The notes under the pieces were generated by a model, which saw only the letters and a program-made list of their open reading frames with translations, was not told the origin of the DNA and ran no database searches. A stretch of 64,000 bases of DNA, taken from positions 310,001 to 374,000 of the forward strand of contig MZZL01000400.1 in assembly GCA_002749535.1 (NCBI GenBank). Direction: 5' to 3'. A program made the translations under genes and the position numbers. The stretch's first letter is position 1, and each line of letters opens with the position of its first letter. Source of the stretch: Apophysomyces variabilis. Lineage: Eukaryota > Mucoromycota > Mucoromycetes > Mucorales > Mucoraceae. Below, one piece after another: positions 3,967-51,991 of this stretch.

Positions 3967-5676
3967 CTATAATTCCTGTGTATGGTTTCCATTTTCAGTA
4001 AAGTAATCACTAATTGAGGTCTGTTTTGTTGCATCCATTGTCCATTGGAGCTCTCGGAGCTTTTTGGACAACAGAACATCCAATTCCGCATCCAAATTGC
4101 ATCCAAGGTCCAAGCTATTGCGCAGCTCTTGAATAAGCGCCTTTTGCTCCGCTATTGTTTTGCTCACAATTTTGGCAATGTGAGAGCTTCATCATCGTCA
4201 TCAGTATCTTCGTGAGAAATATTTCGATACGAAGATGCCATTTCTATCAAAAGATCCTCCGAGAACGTTTCATGGCAAAAGATATCTTCGTCATTAGGAA
4301 GTAACATAACCGATTCTGCTGCCACTCCATTGGCATGTATCACACGCAGGCTCTCACTAATTTCTTCCATGATTTCTCTGTTTTCCTCTCCTTCCTCAAT
4401 GATATTATCTGATTCGCCTGCCATTAAACCTGTTTTGTTGAAACAATTGACGATAGTCTCTTTTTTAACACGATTCCAGGCTGTTTGACAGTACTGCATA
4501 GCGGCCAGCTGATCAAGCTTATAGACGTTTTCTCTTTCACCCTTGACAGAGAATCGCAGGGCTGCAATTCTGTACTGGATTGCTCTAAAGAAGTATTAAG
4601 ATTGGTCAAATATTACCAAATTTTAGCTACCTGTAGTAGGATTTGAAAGATTTAATAATGCCTTGGTCTAATGGCTGTAGTCTGGAGGTAGTGTTGGGAG
4701 GAAGCAAACATATCTCGATGTTTTTCAGTTCTTGCGTCAATTTATGAGAAGATGCATTGTCGACCAACAGTAAGACCTTCTCTCCTTTGTGAACCCTGCC
4801 GAGCACCAAATCAAGTCTTCGCATGACCTTGCGGAATATCATGCTATCCATCCAAGCCTTTGAATTCCAATAGTATTCGCATCCATGGTCTTGTCCTGGG
4901 CTTAAGTCAATGGCAATTGTTTATATACTTTGGATTATACCTGTCTTTCCCTTAAAGCATCTAGGCTTTTCAGTTTTTCCAATAAAAAATGGAGGTAGAC
5001 GATGAGAGTCTTCAGCATTTGCAACTAGCACAACTGTCAGACGTCTCTTATCTTGTTTCAAACCAGCAATAGGCTCTTTGGAGATAGTTTGAGTTGGCAC
5101 TTGACTGAAGAAAAGACCAGTTTCATCAAGATTGTAAACCCGAGAAGCACTATAACCACGGATCTTTTCCTTGATTGCTGCTATCATTTCTTGTATACTT
5201 TCGTTTTCAAGATCGACAGACCCAGCCGCACCATGAATACTATGGCTATGAAAGCCATACCGTCTTTCAAAATTTGTCATCCAACCATCAGAAAAACTGA
5301 ATTTACTGATATCGATCCCCATTTTCCTCGAAAAGTTTAAGGCTTGCCCCTTTATGACGCTGCGGTTGATGGGGATTTTGTTTTCTGCAGCCTGATCAAT
5401 CCACATAGCTAAAGATTTCTCTAACTCAGGGAAAGCAGGGATTCTTTGCCTCTTGGAATTCAGCTGGATTTTGTCCATTTCTTCGTATGATGCTCTCTTC
5501 TTAAGGATAGTAGAAATGGCTGCCTGGGTTGGGATCTTGTTCAACTTAAAAGTTTCATATGCCCATTCGGCCACTTCTTTCTGAGATCTTTTTGTTTCCT
5601 CTGCGTAGTGACATATTTCCAATCTTTGAGCGTTTGAGAGCGTCGCCTTTTTTTGAGCTTGTCTTGTGTTATGCAT
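3967..5676 (-). pseudogene. pogo-type transposase (CENP-B HTH + DDE_1), one frameshift near the C-terminus
   Basis: Exon 1 (5676-4941) encodes a psq/CENP-B N-terminal HTH (about residues 14-65), a Tc5/CENP-B-type second HTH (about 70-140, ending near FERRYGF) and the first catalytic Asp in YNLDETGLFF. A 45-nt intron (4940-4896, GTATAA..CCCAG) joins to exon 2 (4895-4631) with LLLVDNASSHK (second Asp) and LQPLDQGII (third Asp), so the DDD triad is complete. A 46-nt intron (4630-4585) leads to exon 3. Reading runs to a TGA at about 4164, but the shifted frame continues from about 4180 for some 65 more residues to 3967, so a single indel separates the acidic tail from the last coiled segment. That frameshift may or may not abolish activity, since the catalytic core lies before it. 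Confidence 0.88.
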
Positions 5677-26055: not shown

Positions 26056-29000
26056 ATGGCGGCAATGATGGAAGACAGCTATGGATTGGCGGAAGCTGGT
26101 TAGTGCATTGGAGATCTTACACACCTCAATGCAAGTAGTTTGTCAGCAGGAATTCACCCTTTTCTAGAGTACTTTCTTCCCGAAGGAGAAGAGATGTACG
26201 AAGACGAGGGGATCATGTAAGCAGCCAGTTGCTTGTGTGCGATGGCTGGATTCCAATTAATACGCCTATTAGTCAGGAAGATTGCTGGTCAGTCATTTCG
26301 TCCTTTTTCGAGGAGAAAGGTCTGGTGAGACAGCAATTAGATTCTTTTGATGAGTTCGTGCAAAATACCATGCAGGAACTCGTGGACGAAAACTCGAACT
26401 TGGTTCTACAGCATGTTGGTGGTGACGGAGATGTTACAGTAAGGCTATGGTTTCTGTGTAGGAATAGGCGTTAGCTGAACATTATGGATGCTAGAAACGA
26501 TATATTATTGACTTTGGACAAATCTATTTATCAAAACCTACAATGACGGAAGCGGATGGTAGCACACAACCTATGTTTCCTCAAGAAGCACGCATTCGTA
26601 ATCTGACGTAAGTGTAGTTTTTTAGACCTAAGGCAGGTGATAGTTACGGGAATATATGTTAGATATGCATCGCCACTCTACGTGGATATGAGTAAACGCA
26701 CTCAAATAGCTATTCCTCAAGATCCGAACAATGCCACAAAGACAAATCCGAATGACCTATTTGTAGATGAAGATGGACCAGAAGGCGCTCCAATGACAAA
26801 AGTGTTCATTGGAAAGGTATTACATTTTTTGTGAGGTTGGTCATTTAGTCAATTCTTTTTAAACTTTATAAGGTTCCAATCATGCTCCGCTCAACTTACT
26901 GTATATTACACGACATGCCTGAAAGTCAAATGCACGAACTTAACGAGTGTTCCTTCGATATGGGTGGCTACTTTGTCATTAATGGCTCAGAAAAAGTGTT
27001 GATTGCACAGGAGCGAATGGCAACCAACACTGTTTATGTTTTCTCTAAGGCGCCCCCTGCTAATGTACAGTATACGGCTGAAATTCGTTCAGCAGCTGAA
27101 AAAGGGTCGAAACAAGCATCACCATTGTATATAAAAATGTTACGACCGTCAGCGGAACGTGGTTCGAGCGGGAGAGTCATCAAAGCCACGCTGCCATATA
27201 TTCGCCAGGATATCCCTATTGTTGTTGTTTTTCGTGCACTTGGTCAGGTGTCTGATAAGGATGTGTTGGAACATATTTGTTATGACAGAAACGATTACGA
27301 TATGCTGGAGATGTTAAAGCCATCCATTGAAGAAGCCTTTGTTATCCAAGAACAAGAAATTGCGCTCGACTTCATCGGTAAAAGAGGAACAACTGTTGGC
27401 GCAACTAGAGAGAGACGTACAAAATACGCATCCGAGATCCTTCAAAAAGAGTTGCTGCCTCATGTTGGCACTGCTTACAGAACGGAAACACGTAAATCAT
27501 ACTTCTTTGGTTATATGGTGCATCGACTCCTGCTCGCTGCTCTAGAAAGACGCGAGTTAGACGATCGTGACCACTATGGAAAAAAGAGAATGGATTTGGC
27601 TGGTCCTTTAATGGCTGGTTTATTCCGTTTGCTATTCAAGAAGTTGACAAAAGATGTGGCAAAATACCTTCAGAAGGTGGATATATTTGCTCATTTTTAA
27701 CTTGATGTTCTTACCTGTCCCTGTAGTGCATTGAATCTAGTCGCGAGTTCAACCTAACTCTTGCTGTGAAATCAAATACCATTACCAATGGCTTAAAATA
27801 CTCCTTGGCTACTGGTAACTGGGGTGACCAAAAAAAAGCTATGCAAGCAAGAGCAGGTGTCTCTCAGGTATTGAACAGATATACTTTTGCATCAACTCTG
27901 TCACATTTGCGTCGCTGCAATACACCTATCGGAAGAGATGGAAAGATCGCCAAACCACGTCAACTGCATAACACTCACTGGGGTCTTGTTTGCCCTGCTG
28001 AAACTCCTGAAGGTCAAGCCTGTGGTCTTGTCAAAAACTTGGCTTTGATGTCCTATATCTCTGTTGGTTCCTCAGCAAACCCACTAATTCTGTTCTTGGA
28101 GGAATGGGCAATGGAAAATTTGGAAGAGTTAAGTGCAAACAGCATTCCCGAAGCTACAAAAGTGTTCGTTAACGGTGTGTGGATTGGTATCCACCGTGAC
28201 CCCGGTGAATTGGTCAATTCTTTGAAGCAAATGAGACGATCAGTGGATATTTCACCAGAAGTGAGCATTGTCAGGGATATTCGTGAAAAGGAGTTACGCA
28301 TGTATACGGATGCTGGTAGATGCTGTCGACCTTTGTTCTTGGTAGATAATCAACAGCTGCGGATAACGAGAGAGCATATTGCACGACTACAGGATCCTGA
28401 AGACAGTTATCGCTGGCAGAATCTTATTTCAGATGGTATCGTGGAATATGTGGATGCTGAGGAAGAAGAAACTGCAATGATTTGCATGACCCCCGAGGAT
28501 TTGGCAGAATCTAGGGTAGCTTTCGAGTACGGTGCCCCATTGCAACAAACTAGAGATGTTGCTAGTCGCGTCAAGAGTCAGACTGGCATGTATTCGCACA
28601 CCTGGACCCATTGTGAAATCCATCCTAGTATGATTCTTGGTATTTGTGCCAGTATTATTCCTTTCCCCGATCATAACCAGGTAGGTCGCTTTATATGACG
28701 AACCAATAGCGTTACTAAATATTGACTAGTCGCCCCGTAACACTTATCAATCTGCTATGGGTAAACAAGCAATGGGTGTATATCTGACCAACTATCAGAC
28801 TCGTATGGACACAATGGCCAATATCCTTTATTACCCGCAGAAGCCCCTCACCACTACAAGATCCATGGAATTTTTGCGCTTCCGAGAGCTACCCGCCGGT
28901 CAGAACGCTATAGTTGCCATTTTGTGTTACTCTGGATATAATCAGGAAGATTCGGTTATCATGAATCAGAGCAGTATTGATCGCGGCTTATTCAGAAGTC

Positions 29001-31594
29001 TTTTCTTCCGAACATACATGGATGCGGAAAAGAAGGCTGGTATGATGTTCATGGAAGAGTTTGAGAAACCAACGCGCGAGACAACCTTGCGATTAAAGCA
29101 TGGCACATATGAGAAATTGGAAGATGATGGTTTAATCGCTCCAGGAACTCGCGTTTCCGGTGATGATATCATCATTGGTAAAACTGCGCCTATCCCGGTT
29201 GAATCAGAAGAGCTTGGTCAGAGAACACAGACTCATTCCAAGCGAGACGCATCAACGCCTTTGCGCAGCACTGAGACTGGCATTGTCGATCAGGTCATGC
29301 TGACGACAAACCAGGACGGTCTGAAGTTCGTGAAAGTGAGAGTTCGGTCCACGCGCGTTCCTCAAATGGGCGATAAGTTTGCATCGCGTCACGGTCAGAA
29401 GGGTACTATTGGTATTACATACCGACAGGAAGATTTCCCTTTTACTGCCGAAGGTATCACACCTGATCTCATTATCAACCCACACGCCATTCCGTCCCGT
29501 ATGACAATCGGCCATTTGGTTGAATGTTTGCTAGGCAAGGTGTCCACTCTGACTGGCAACGAAGGTGATGCCACCCCTTTCACCGAAGTAACTGTTGAAG
29601 ATATCTCCCAAGCATTGGCTGCAGCGGGCTATCAGCAACGTGGGTTCGAAGTGATGTACAATGGGTTCACTGGCCGTAAATTAAATGCACAAGTATTCCT
29701 TGGTCCCACGTATTACCAGCGTTTGAAGCACATGGTAGACGATAAGATTCACAGTCGAGCACGAGGACCTGTTCAAATTCTCACGAGACAGCCGGTGGAA
29801 GGTCGTTCAAGAGATGGCGGTTTACGTTTCGGTGAGATGGAGAGAGACTGTCTTCGCGGGGACACTCGTATTTCCTTGGAGCATGTGAGTGTCCGGCTTG
29901 ACTCGCTTTCTGAATCATCAGGGGCGAAGTTATTAGCATACAACGAAGAAAAGTGTGGTGTTGAAGTCGATAGTATGGTTGCATTTGCTGCAAAGGGAAA
30001 TCGACCTTGTGTTCGTGTACACTTTGAAGATAGTAGCTATGTCGATTCTACCGATGATCATCCTTTCCTATGTGGGGACGGCGAATGGAGACGTGCAACA
30101 GAGCTTACTGGACAAAGAGTTAGCAAGAGCGCTGAATTCCCGCTCGTAGATATAAAGCAGGAGATGGCAGAGACATACACGACTAATGTGGATGATTATC
30201 GCGAGCAATGCGCGATATATCGCCTGCTGGGTTATTCTCTGATGAGGAGCAAGAAACTTTCCGATGGTACATTGGTGATTCAAGCGGAACAATTATTCGA
30301 CGTTAACAGCATATTAACCGACATTGAGCTCTACAACGGAACGCGTGTCACACCAGTGTACGAAGATGGAACCTATTCGATCCATTTGCCTCTCGATGTT
30401 TCTCAGCTTTTAGAACACATCAACGATGCATCCATAAACGGTGAACGCTTGGATCTGCCTGCTGCTTTACCGCCCACCCTGTTAGAAGATCAGTTCCCTC
30501 TACCCCTACTCCGTGAGTTTGTTGGCGCTGCATTCGGTACCGCTGGACAAGCTCCGCGTGTAGACGTTGATAGACCGGATCTATTCACTGATATCGTGCT
30601 CAGCCAAACGAAGATCTCTTCGCTGATTGAATCTCTTCAGACTTGTATGGAACAGATGAAAAAATTACTAGTACGATTGGGTGTCGAACAAGGCGCAATT
30701 TCCATCCATGCTGTACAGTTAAGTACTGACGATGTACAAGAATTGCGATTATGTATCGGCACATCACAATTAGCTACCTTCCATGATAAGATCGGCTTCC
30801 GTCATTCTATGCAAAAATCTCTTCAACTGGAAGCAGCAGTGTCATACGAGCGTTTATGTGAAGCAGCACGTCAGCAGACGGTTTCCTTGCACGAACGCGC
30901 GCGGGAGTTATGGACTTCAAATTTTGGTAGCTGGGAAGAATGCGCGGCGGCAGCATGGGATCAGCTCGAAGAGTGCCAACCTATCTATGTTCAACAAGAC
31001 CCATTGTCATTACTCGATGGTGTTCAGGAAGATCTGATGCCCCTGAACAGCACAGAGGACAAATCACGGCAAAAACTTCCTACACCAAACCAATATTTAC
31101 AGTTGACAGGTGCTAATCAATTTTATGACCATAGCCAAAACGACAATGACACTTTGCCGGGTATGCGTCTGAGAGTCGTCTCTGTCCGGCCGATTGGCGA
31201 ACATCCTGTTTATGATATCCAGGTACACAACAATCACAACTTTATAGGAAACGGTGCTGTGGCACATAACTGTATGATCAGTCATGGCGTTGCCCAGTTT
31301 CTGAAGGTATGGGACTGATAGTTTCATTGATCATCTCATGGTGTTGACCTTGTCGTTTCTGTTTTTTAGGAGCGTTTGTTTGACGCATCCGATGCATACC
31401 GTGTCCATGTCTGTGATATTTGTGGTTTAATGGCAATTGCCAACCTGAAAAAGAACAATTTTGAATGCCGTTCGTGCAGGAACAAGACTCGTGTTTCTCA
31501 GATCCATATCCCTTACGCTTGTAAACTTTTGTTCCAGGAACTCATGGCGATGAACATTGCGCCACGTATGTTTGTAGACTCAGATCAGCCTTAA
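26056..31594 (+). CDS. RPB2: RPB2, second-largest subunit of RNA polymerase II, carrying an intein
   Basis: Nine exons: 26056-26098, 26168-26216, 26273-26438, 26495-26607, 26663-26816, 26873-27676, 27727-28680, 28730-31306, 31370-31594. The precursor is 1694 aa; after removal of a 474-residue insertion it is 1220 aa, close to the yeast 1224. Pol II-specific and universal beta-subunit motifs are clear: [20 protein letters not shown] at the N-terminus, [20 protein letters not shown], the hybrid-binding [28 protein letters not shown], and the C-terminal zinc ribbon C-x2-C..C-x2-C (CDICG and CRSCR). Exon 8 contains the intein between the Asp of GEMERD and the Cys of [15 protein letters not shown]2 forms one side of the polymerase cleft and is essential, so the intein must splice for the cell to live, unless another allele exists. 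Confidence 0.97.
29849..31270 (+). mobile_element. Intein in RPB2 (474 aa, Cys1 / His-Asn / Cys+1, LAGLIDADG-type with lost acids)
   Basis: The insert interrupts the universally conserved GEMERD-CMISHG sequence in frame and inside one exon. It begins with Cys1 in block A ([10 protein letters not shown]), has block B with T68-x-x-H71 (STDDHPF), block F near 454-469 ([15 protein letters not shown]) and block G ending in His473-Asn474, followed by Cys+1 of the host. All residues for class 1 protein splicing are present. Residues about 100-430 form the linker and endonuclease region: LAGLIDADG-like helices at about 125-133 (RLLGYSLMR) and 221-233 ([13 protein letters not shown]), and an [19 protein letters not shown] segment like that of LAGLIDADG inteins. 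The acidic residue expected at position 8 of each helix is Arg in the first and Ala in the second. Splicing looks competent; homing cleavage probably is not. Confidence 0.95.
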
Positions 31595-33101: not shown

Positions 33102-34659
33102 ACCTTCACCTTTTTTTCCATNNNNNNNNNNNNNNNNNNNNNNNNNNNNNNNNNNNNNNNNNNNNNNNNNNNNNNNNNNNNNNNNNNNNNNNNNNNNNNN
33201 NNNNNNNNNNNNNNNNNNNNNNNNNNNNNNNNNNNNNNNNNNNNNNNNNNNNNNNNNNNNNNNNNNNNNNNNNNNNNNNNNNNNNNNNNNNNNNNNNNNN
33301 NNNNNNNNNNNNNNNNNNNNNNNNNNNNNNNNNNNNNNNNNNNNNNNNNNNNNNNNNNNNNNNNNNNNNNNNNNNNNNNNNNNNNNNNNNNNNNNNNNNN
33401 NNNNNNNNNNNNNNNNNNNNNNNNNNNNNNNNNNNNNNNNNNNNNNNNNNNNNNNNNNNNNNNNNNNNNNNNNNNNNNNNNNNNNNNNNNNNNNNNNNNN
33501 NNNNNNNNNNNNNNNNNNNNNNNNNNNNNNNNNNNNNNNNNNNNNNNNNNNNNNNNNNNNNNNNNNNNNNNNNNNNNNNNNNNNNNNNNNNNNNNNNNNN
33601 NNNNNNNNNNNNNNNNNNNNNNNNNNNNNNNNNNNNNNNNNNNNNNNNNNNNNNNNNNNNNNNNNNNNNNNNNNNAATTGAAAAAAAAAAAAAAAAAAAA
33701 AAAAAGGTTAGTAAAGCCTTCACCTTTTCTCCCATTAAAGTTTTTCCTTTGCTTTACCGTTTTCTAATGCTTTAGGTAGGTCTGTTTCATCGGGTATACC
33801 AATCTCAGCCCACATCTTCTTGAATTCTTCATCTATCATGGTGTTATACTGGATGTCGTTATAAAATAACACGCGCGGATTGCCATCCTTGTTGCGGATC
33901 ACTAAGATGCGCCCCTCAGCTGCCAATTCCTCGACTGCGTTTCCCAGTTTCGAATATGAATCTTTCAGATCCTTATAGTCCATTCCACCTTCGTTTCTTT
34001 TCTGAATCAGCAATGATAATAGATCGTCTTTGCTTTTAATTTGGTATGTGGGCTATCATCAGATCGAACGATTCAGTTTGTACAAAACCAATAATATCCT
34101 GTGTTGCTCTGACCTTGTATGCAAATGTTTTATTGACAGGATCATATTCGATTTTGTCGTTATTGACCAGCTTTTCCCATAAGGATTGGTTCTTGGTTAT
34201 GTCGACTTTAGCGCGTGATTGAATGCTGACGATAGATTGAGGATGGTCACAATCCTACTCAAGGAATAATTAAGTCGAAAGAACAAAAAGAACAATACTA
34301 AAGTCGAAGATCTTTCTTTTTTTTTTTACCCTAAGGAATTGGATCACTGTGTATAGCTGACTCATGGCATGATGGCCAGTGCCGGTGTTTGCCGGCTGTG
34401 AATAGACTATACAAGAAGCAGATTCAGCCACAATCAAGATCTTCTCTTTTTCAGATTAGATACCAGTGGCTTTCTTTGCTCGTTTCCTTGATTCTTGGCT
34501 GGATGACTCAAACGATGCTTTGGTATTGTTGGATATATATCCAACCGATTTTGACTCTGCAGTGTGAGCCTGTGCGGTTCCCGCTCGTTTCACACCGAGA
34601 ACAGTGTTTGCGGATTGTGAACTTTTAAATCTTTTTAACTGATCTGATAGATGTGACAT
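32846..34659 (-). CDS. TFA2: TFIIE subunit beta (TFA2), one intron spanning the assembly gap
   Basis: Six exons (34659-34464, 34406-34330, 34254-34114, 34052-33758, 33048-33002, 32947-32846) total 286 codons. The N-terminus MSHLSDQLKRFKSSQS, winged-helix 1 (MSQLYTVIQFLR to LWEKLVNNDKIEYDP), winged-helix 2 (YKDLKDSYSK, ILVIRNKDGNPRVLF, DEEFKKMWAEI) and the basic C-terminus KITNTHLAHIDLSKDY are all TFIIE-beta features. TFIIE recruits and regulates TFIIH at Pol II promoters. The DLPKALENAG-LKTMEVF junction is split by intron 4 (33757-33049), which contains the run of N. Because exon phases match exactly across it, no coding sequence need be missing. Confidence 0.93.
33122..33675. other. Assembly gap (554 N) inside an intron of TFIIE-beta
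   Basis: The two flanks are near copies of each other: AATTG, a long A run, TTA(A/G)TAAA(A/G)CCTTCACC and a T-rich/CCAT end occur at 33063-33121 and again at 33676-33735. The A run (T run in the transcript) probably caused the break, and the real gap may be zero or negative in length. Confidence 0.8.
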
Positions 34660-50634: not shown

Positions 50635-51214
50635 GTACGTCAATAGATAGTAATGTAAGATATGAAATATTGTTTTTTTTTCCACAAAGGATATACAGAT
50701 TAACCGATGCATATGAATGGTCGTATTGTCATCTTTTTTTGTTCCTGAGCAGAAAATCACCCTTTGTTTCTTACCAAATCAAAGCTTTTTTTCCCATGAA
50801 ATGTTTCTTCTGTTTATTTGGAATTTGGATTTAGTTTGCATATAGCAATTCAAGGCACCGTAGAACTAAACAAATTGACAAGATGATGATGATTAATGAT
50901 TATGATAGGTTAATCGCCTCAATATTTCCATGATGGTAAAAGAGAAGCTAAAATACCAATTCACAGTTCCTATCTTATTCTATCATAAGGGTGTGAATCC
51001 AGAAACAAAGTCTTGTCCGAATCCGTGCGAGCTTTACTGCTTCGTTCTTCTTTTTTTTTTTTTAATGCGACATGACTCCGTCTGATCCATTGTTTCGCGA
51101 GTTCATCTCAATTTTCTTTTTCTGTTCTTTCTACGTTTGTTCTCTCTTTCTCCCCTTCTCTTTGTTTTTGTCACTGAAAGTCTTTTTCTCTTCCTTTGTT
51201 ATTTTGAAGCAAAC
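50635..51214. other. Intergenic region esterase / homeodomain gene
   Basis: Poly-T runs at 51051-51062 and long pyrimidine tracts up to the next start; no gene. Confidence 0.5.
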
Positions 51215-51991
51215 ATGTCGGATGAAGTACCATGGCTTAGCTTCTTTTTGGATAATGATTATCATATGATCACTGGTTTAGACGACCCTGTAGGTTTGCA
51301 ATTGGATCCCTCTGTTAGTTGGCCCGACCATGTCATTAGCAGTTCAAGTTCAGAGTGCTTTAATGCACAATTACTCGAACTTTTCTCAAAGATTAAGGTG
51401 ATCGACCCAGCCCCTCTCATTGTAGAGAGTGATTTGCTATGTAATTGTTACTGTGATTGGTGTCGATTTCTCCGTTATGGCATGTTATGGATTCCATTGA
51501 ACTCCGTCCAATGTGTAAGACCGGATGTCTTGCTCCTTTCGGTCCAGGGCAGCGAGGTTTCAAATGCAAAAGAAGCCTTTGGAGCGCCTGACTCTATCGA
51601 ACAAAAAAGATCTATCGTCCCCTCCAATCCCAAGAAAAAGACCTCTCTGAATGCAAGGACGAAGAAACTGAAAAAGTTCACGGCGCGTCAGACTTCGCAT
51701 TGGTACGATCCAAGTACACTTAAGTACCTCAAGTCGGTATTTTATAATGTCTTCAGTAAACAAGACAGATTAACAAGAGAAGAGCGCCGAAAAGTTCACT
51801 TGCACACGGGTATACATCCCAGAAAGATTACGTACTGGTTCTCAAATCACAAGCGACGCTATCGGCGGTCATTGCAGAACTTTATCAAGATTCAGCGTAG
51901 CGTCCGTTGGGTGAAAACTTATGAAGACTTCCTAGTATGGCGCCATTCACAAGGCTTACCGGAAGAAATGAAAGAAAACGAAATTCTTTGA
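51215..51991 (+). CDS. Homeodomain protein, intron-free
   Basis: A single exon encodes 258 aa starting MSDEVPWLSFFLDND. Residues about 150-215 form a homeodomain: a basic N-terminal arm (KKLKKFTARQT), helix 1 (STLKYLKSVFYNVF), helix 2 (TREERRKVHLHTG) and helix 3 with the W-F-x-N signature (ITYWFSNHKRRYRRS). The Asn that contacts adenine is present. The usual Arg after it is His (WFSNHK), followed by a very basic run. The N-terminal 130 residues have a Cys-rich patch (LLCNCYCDWC). Fungal homeodomain genes include developmental and mating-type regulators; nothing here decides the role. The in-frame ATG upstream (51137) would add a hydrophobic leader and is rejected. Confidence 0.85.
   Translation: MSDEVPWLSFFLDNDYHMITGLDDPVGLQLDPSVSWPDHVISSSSSECFNAQLLELFSKIKVIDPAPLIVESDLLCNCYCDWCRFLRYGMLWIPLNSVQCVRPDVLLLSVQGSEVSNAKEAFGAPDSIEQKRSIVPSNPKKKTSLNARTKKLKKFTARQTSHWYDPSTLKYLKSVFYNVFSKQDRLTREERRKVHLHTGIHPRKITYWFSNHKRRYRRSLQNFIKIQRSVRWVKTYEDFLVWRHSQGLPEEMKENEIL

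Follow-up and report, generated by a model that had tools for sequence, protein, structure and literature searches.

We found that the RPB2 gene of the fungus Apophysomyces variabilis very probably carries a class 1 intein that is likely to excise itself from this subunit of RNA polymerase II (Pol II) and whose LAGLIDADG homing endonuclease is predicted to be dead. The gene lies in the window, by which we mean the whole stretch of 64,000 nucleotides that was analysed (assembly GCA_002749535.1, contig MZZL01000400.1, positions 310,001 to 374,000); all coordinates are those of the window. The insert comprises 1422 bases, or 474 codons, in a frame that is open and in phase with RPB2, and it falls between the counterparts of yeast Rpb2 D1136 and C1137; the N-extein piece before it (28757-29848) aligns end to end with yeast Rpb2, reaching residue 1136. 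Joining the nine predicted exons gives a 1694-residue precursor in which the insert occupies residues 1135-1608, and leaving it out reproduces the 1220-residue RPB2 of the original prediction, whose coordinates, 474-codon length, initial Cys, terminal His-Asn and following Cys also proved exact when the sequence was re-read. The features of the gene and insert are as follows.

26056..31594, plus strand: RPB2 gene, nine predicted exons, with the 28757-29848 piece aligned to yeast Rpb2
26056-26098, 26168-26216, 26273-26438, 26495-26607, 26663-26816: predicted RPB2 exons 1-5
26873-27676, 27727-28680, 28730-31306, 31370-31594: predicted RPB2 exons 6-9
29849..31270, plus strand: putative intein, 474 residues, inside exon 8
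29849..30142, plus strand: N-terminal splicing (Hint) part, residues 1-98, its end at 98 chosen from the alignment
29849-29851, plus strand: Cys1
30050-30061, plus strand: TDDH (Thr68-His71)
30143..31168, plus strand: LAGLIDADG endonuclease part with linkers, residues 99-440, predicted inactive (fold match, divergence ratio)
30245..30247, plus strand: Arg133, in the first catalytic Asp column of the alignment
30542..30544, plus strand: Ala232, in the second catalytic Asp column of the alignment
31169..31270, plus strand: C-terminal splicing part, residues 441-474 (intein_Cterm profile, aligned residues)
31214-31216, plus strand: Asp456
31235-31237, plus strand: His463
31265-31270, plus strand: His473-Asn474
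31271..31273, plus strand: first C-extein codon (Cys+1)

Splicing residues and predicted fold of the insert

We class the insert as a class 1 intein on the basis of family profiles, a confident model of its structure and the presence of the residues that splicing is expected to need. The Pfam profile Intein_splicing (PF14890) scored 52.6 bits on it (cut-off, 35.8) and the NCBIfam profile intein_Cterm 30.5 bits (cut-off, 15.6), and the structure model, with a predicted local distance difference test (pLDDT) value of 85, has a Hint fold. Cys1, a TxxH motif, the C-terminal His-Asn and Cys+1 are all present in an in-frame insert that is open with the host frame, and the 120 RPB2 homologues compared below are empty at this position. 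By the class 1 mechanism, and given the residues present, Cys1 would form a thioester, the N-extein would pass to Cys+1, Asn474 would cyclise with the assistance of His473, and a new peptide bond would ligate GEMERD to CMISHG, across GEMERDCMISHG, to yield the 1220-residue RPB2. A further cysteine of the intein, Cys54 (30008-30010), is present in 22 of 23 aligned inteins.

An exceedingly unlikely alternative is that the 1422 bases, as a spliceosomal intron or an artefact of the assembly, are absent from the protein. RPB2 has eight predicted introns, all GT-AG and 49-69 nucleotides long, so that another would be unremarkable, but the insert is twenty-odd times their length and open in frame. 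Given the base composition, the chance of a stop-free run of 474 codons is about 4e-12, and the five remaining frames across the insert contain 15-31 stops apiece. Six equivalent shifts of the removed piece yield an identical product, and none of the six has GT and AG ends. An intron or artefact would also have to carry an intein profile, predicted fold and splicing residues, to recur as homologous inserts at the identical residue in independent records, and to resemble its host in G+C content at third codon positions (GC3; 0.422 for the intein versus 0.428 for the host-gene extein). The profiles, the predicted fold, the splicing residues, the empty relatives and the absence of GT-AG ends thus support the intein that had been proposed here.

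Residues 267-333 also gave a Pfam match to phosphoglucose isomerase (E value, 0.00078; 18.6 bits; cut-off, 22), which, being below its cut-off, was set aside as chance; two matches to phosphoglucose isomerase chains were weak (E values, 0.58 and 0.84), and in the alignment this segment falls opposite the endonuclease part of viral-like inteins.

Empty sites in relatives and copy number

We compared the site with a set of RPB2 homologues consisting of the best 120 of 7980 matches. It was empty in all 120, reading GEMERDC followed by M, L or I in 118 and GEMERDCQ in two, so that the comparison with relatives called for by the original prediction finds the site empty in these sequences and occupied in three more fungal RPB2s, described below. 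The nearest named RPB2s, among the matches listed, were those of Absidia cylindrospora (91% identity), Blakeslea (89%), and Circinella and Syncephalastrum (88% each). A full-length RPB2 tree of 12 sequences places A. variabilis within Mucorales (support, 100/100), its nearest sister not being settled.

When the RPB2 piece was compared with the 38.7-Mb genome, one locus matched at 100%. Six further matches, each a piece with 38-79% identity, fall on two contigs and are read as the subunits of Pol I and Pol III.

Other inteins at the RPB2-a site

The insertion site is, by its position, RPB2-a, which has already been named and is known from Chlamydomonas. In the alignment of Goodwin and others, as far as available, the b site is column 1664 and the a site (Chlamydomonas) column 1696 (PMC1635734); the b site is occupied in the RPB2 of Spiromyces aspiralis (P0003), and because it lies 32 residues from the A. 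variabilis insertion site, an offset equal to that between the two columns, the latter corresponds to RPB2-a. As far as position goes, this answers the question of allelism with catalogued inteins raised beforehand. The Chlamydomonas reinhardtii intein, Cre RPB2, shares this site and is likened to ours by position only; it differs in its Gly-Asn end and in grouping with threonyl-tRNA synthetase (ThrRS) inteins, according to the part of that paper available (PMC1635734).

Three more fungal and 15 giant-virus-like RPB2s share homologous inteins at exactly RPB2-a, an observation that is new. These inteins, directly after GEMERD or GEMEKD and before Cys, account for 17 of the 22 matches of one homologue search, which with P0002 and A. 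variabilis itself make 19; the five remaining matches lie in other proteins. The four fungal carriers are A. variabilis, P0002, S. aspiralis and Mycoemilia scoparia (P0005), and the 15 viral-looking carriers are P0004 and P0007-P0020. Inteins of PolB (P0006) and glycine dehydrogenase (P0021, P0022) served as outgroups, and two weak matches, P0023 and P0024, were excluded from the alignment. The glycine dehydrogenase inteins, of the same family, have both catalytic Asp residues and are located before CIPHGGG.

Among the fungal copies, that of P0002, an RPB2 fragment, has the same site, 49% identity to the A. variabilis intein and no catalytic Asp, but is 427 residues long and belongs to a separate Mucorales lineage. 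The Spiromyces and Mycoemilia inteins occupy the same RPB2 residue, also have endonuclease motifs without Asp, and are 37% and 31% identical to the whole A. variabilis intein, all forming one group; their hosts, by name, belong to another subphylum, and both have extra RPB2 inteins. The Mycoemilia RPB2 (2428 residues) contains three inteins, before CPAETPEG and at the b and a sites, and the Spiromyces RPB2 contains two, at the b and a sites; in the accessible text of the 2006 paper, only the b-site intein is named for Spiromyces (PMC1635734).

The giant-virus-like inteins share the residue and the architecture, with identities in the range of 24-34%, but have both catalytic aspartates and are 515-546 residues long. 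The main extein pieces of P0004, P0007, P0009, P0010 and P0016 are 42-58% identical to that of A. variabilis; the corresponding piece of the compared fungi is 79-96% identical. The ten other carriers are presumed to be giant-virus-like from their likeness to these five. The top viral structure match was an RNA polymerase intein of Pandoravirus japonicus (A0A811BS74; template modeling [TM] score, 0.85; 36% identity over 516 columns), likened by structure and identity alone and not by insertion site or endonuclease motifs, and the next matches were RNA polymerases of cedratvirus, pithovirus, marseillevirus and klosneuvirus kin. Because a Yasminevirus threonine-tRNA ligase (TM, 0.85) and a Pandoravirus salinus ribonucleotide reductase (TM, 0.82) in BFVD match the whole intein model, the same predicted architecture sits in other viral proteins as well.

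Scans of IMG/VR with the A. variabilis-P0002 pair, the A. variabilis intein, the P0004-P0013 pair and the P0013 intein, and with one DNA pattern of the occupied site, gave no RPB2-a intein; one of the IMG/VR scans gave 35% matches to 78 residues on three contigs. In prokaryote genomes, one scan returned no relative. As for other fungal RPB2 inteins, we take the Salmacisia primer pair to match a different motif. The RPB2 inteins of this smut lie between the two primers, according to the available part of PMC10849329.

Probable loss of the endonuclease active site

The predicted structure retains a LAGLIDADG fold, with a match to I-DmoI over intein residues 116-324, and lacks the catalytic acid in each LAGLIDADG motif. 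Both catalytic columns are Asp in all 19 non-fungal inteins aligned (15 RPB2-a, two PolB and two glycine dehydrogenase), and in none of the four fungal inteins is either column Asp: A. variabilis has Arg and Ala, P0002 a gap and Arg, Spiromyces Glu and Gly, and Mycoemilia Gln and Met. No inactivating residue is common to all four.

We also found that the endonuclease part diverged faster than the splicing part in the fungal copies. The ratio of the two divergences was 2.8-4.0 in all six fungal pairs, and 2.9-4.0 for A. variabilis against the other three. Among 14 viral-like RPB2-a inteins, compared in 91 pairs, its median was 1.07 (range, 0.63-2.16), and it reached at most 1.61 in the 53 of these pairs whose splicing-part divergence was fungal-like; for 56 fungus-virus pairs the median was 1.56. 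P0019, which is near-identical to P0018, was excluded from the alignment used here (A4) and from the ratios. The endonuclease fold is thus still predicted, with its former constraint, by these ratios, relaxed, and because the catalytic Asp residues are absent and the endonuclease diverges faster in fungal inteins, the A. variabilis intein likely still splices but has lost homing.

It is very unlikely that the intein is still active and homing, with other residues catalysing cleavage or the alignment masking the acids. The fold is predicted with good confidence at full length and one catalytic column of Spiromyces holds Glu, but in A. variabilis Arg and Ala occupy both columns, and the divergence of the endonuclease from the other fungal copies is several times that of the splicing part. 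Dead copies also occur in viruses, since RNA polymerase gene inteins seemingly without an active endonuclease are described for Bodo saltans virus in the available text of PMC5871332; yet none of the 15 viral-like RPB2-a inteins is without the aspartates.

Origin of the fungal inteins

The same-residue homologues with catalytic Asp in giant-virus-like RPB2s suggest past movement between such viruses and fungi, its direction and date not being settled. One possible history, which we put forward tentatively, is that RPB2-a inteins are a single allelic lineage in giant viruses and fungal Pol II, in which a mobile viral copy homed into the equivalent codon of a fungal RPB2, its endonuclease died, and the intein became an obligatory splicing step in Mucorales and in Spiromyces-Mycoemilia. 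With its endonuclease dead, the intein would be inherited by descent, and it would persist because nothing short of an exact deletion is tolerated.

In the intein tree, all four fungal inteins, which are on long branches, cluster together (100/99). Within this cluster, support is 93/93 for the pair of A. variabilis and P0002 and 91/85 for that of Spiromyces and Mycoemilia. Topology tests did not reject a single clade of the 19 RPB2-a inteins (P = 0.298), a single clade of the 15 viral-like ones (P = 0.298), or a clade of the fungal inteins with P0004 and P0007 (P = 0.346). In the extein tree, from which five of 28 selected RPB2s without the motif used for extraction were dropped, the P0002 host adjoins Syncephalastrum (98/84; 340 columns).

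A serious possibility, if short of the probable one, is that each fungal copy arrived separately and recently, homing in with a live endonuclease that later died, as opposed to a single old fungal intein having been lost many times. No fewer than three changes in intein presence occur on the extein tree, where empty Absidia, Circinella, Dichotomocladium, Syncephalastrum and Blakeslea separate the carriers, and the four copies share no inactivating residue. However, they form one group whose splits (Mucorales versus Spiromyces plus Mycoemilia) follow the hosts, and the GC3 of the intein resembles that of its host gene. Those splits are themselves not firm, since a pairing of A. variabilis with Spiromyces was not rejected (P = 0.22) and long branches meet there.

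Several observations weigh against the account of a splicing-competent, decayed intein of viral connection. The NCBIfam profile intein_Nterm scored 18.9 bits on the insert, under its cut-off of 24.5. The Spiromyces Glu sits within an alignment insert, which makes the loss in that copy alignment dependent. Deep branches of the intein tree are poorly resolved and the link to viruses is weak, P0010 being the sole one of the 15 viral-looking carriers with the source label "viral metagenome" (UniRef). Two family searches of the genome found no second intein, though weak or intron-split ones could escape, and six-frame PF14890 pieces fell below the family cut-off, so that other inteins could be missed.

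Probable dependence of Pol II on splicing

Since the searches turned up a single RPB2 gene and the insertion falls within the enzyme's conserved core, we infer that Pol II would need the intein to splice. In the available text of the 2006 paper, the a site is placed in the anchor domain, near the active site (PMC1635734). The Prp8 intein of Cryptococcus is likewise endonuclease inactive and lies in an essential fungal gene-expression protein (PMC6805012, as excerpted), but its host protein is another and it has no endonuclease domain at all (PMC10849329, as excerpted).

Retention of the intein because redox or metal control of its splicing regulates Pol II is unlikely. The case for redox or metal sensitivity, raised beforehand, is one of analogy with the Cryptococcus Prp8 intein, which is inhibited by copper and zinc, by copper also inside that fungus (available part of PMC6805012). 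Cys54 is retained in 22 of the 23 aligned inteins. However, Cys54 is also retained where the catalytic aspartates are intact and may be structural, and the requirement for exact deletion would account for persistence without any function.

Neighbouring sequence

Downstream of RPB2, a run of N extends from 33122 to about 33700, and beyond it is a piece of the TFIIE beta (Tfa2) gene (33735-34013, minus strand). Elsewhere in the window are an open frame with Tc5-type transposase DNA-binding and DDE domains (4921-5676, minus strand) and one encoding a homeodomain (51137-51991, plus strand).

Prior knowledge and meaning

Among the titles and abstracts listed by searches of the open-access literature, none concerned an RPB2 intein in Mucorales, and the available excerpts of PMC8778642 and PMC6950457 contain nothing on RPB2 inteins. 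In the accessible part of a 2018 survey (PMC5784728), 21 nuclear RNA polymerase inteins are counted, Mucoromycota is not among the host groups, and the legend of Figure 3 states that virus and virus-host inteins show no overlap. The 2006 paper, in the part available, describes nuclear alleles of its viral RNA polymerase intein, at another site, as not yet known (PMC1635734).

If our reading is true, a fungus of the Mucorales relies on protein splicing to make its Pol II, and inhibitors of splicing might affect fungi of this kind. One RPB2 residue would then provide a matched set of catalytically intact giant-virus-like inteins, dead fungal ones and empty close relatives, which would make intein transfer and decay in an essential nuclear gene testable.
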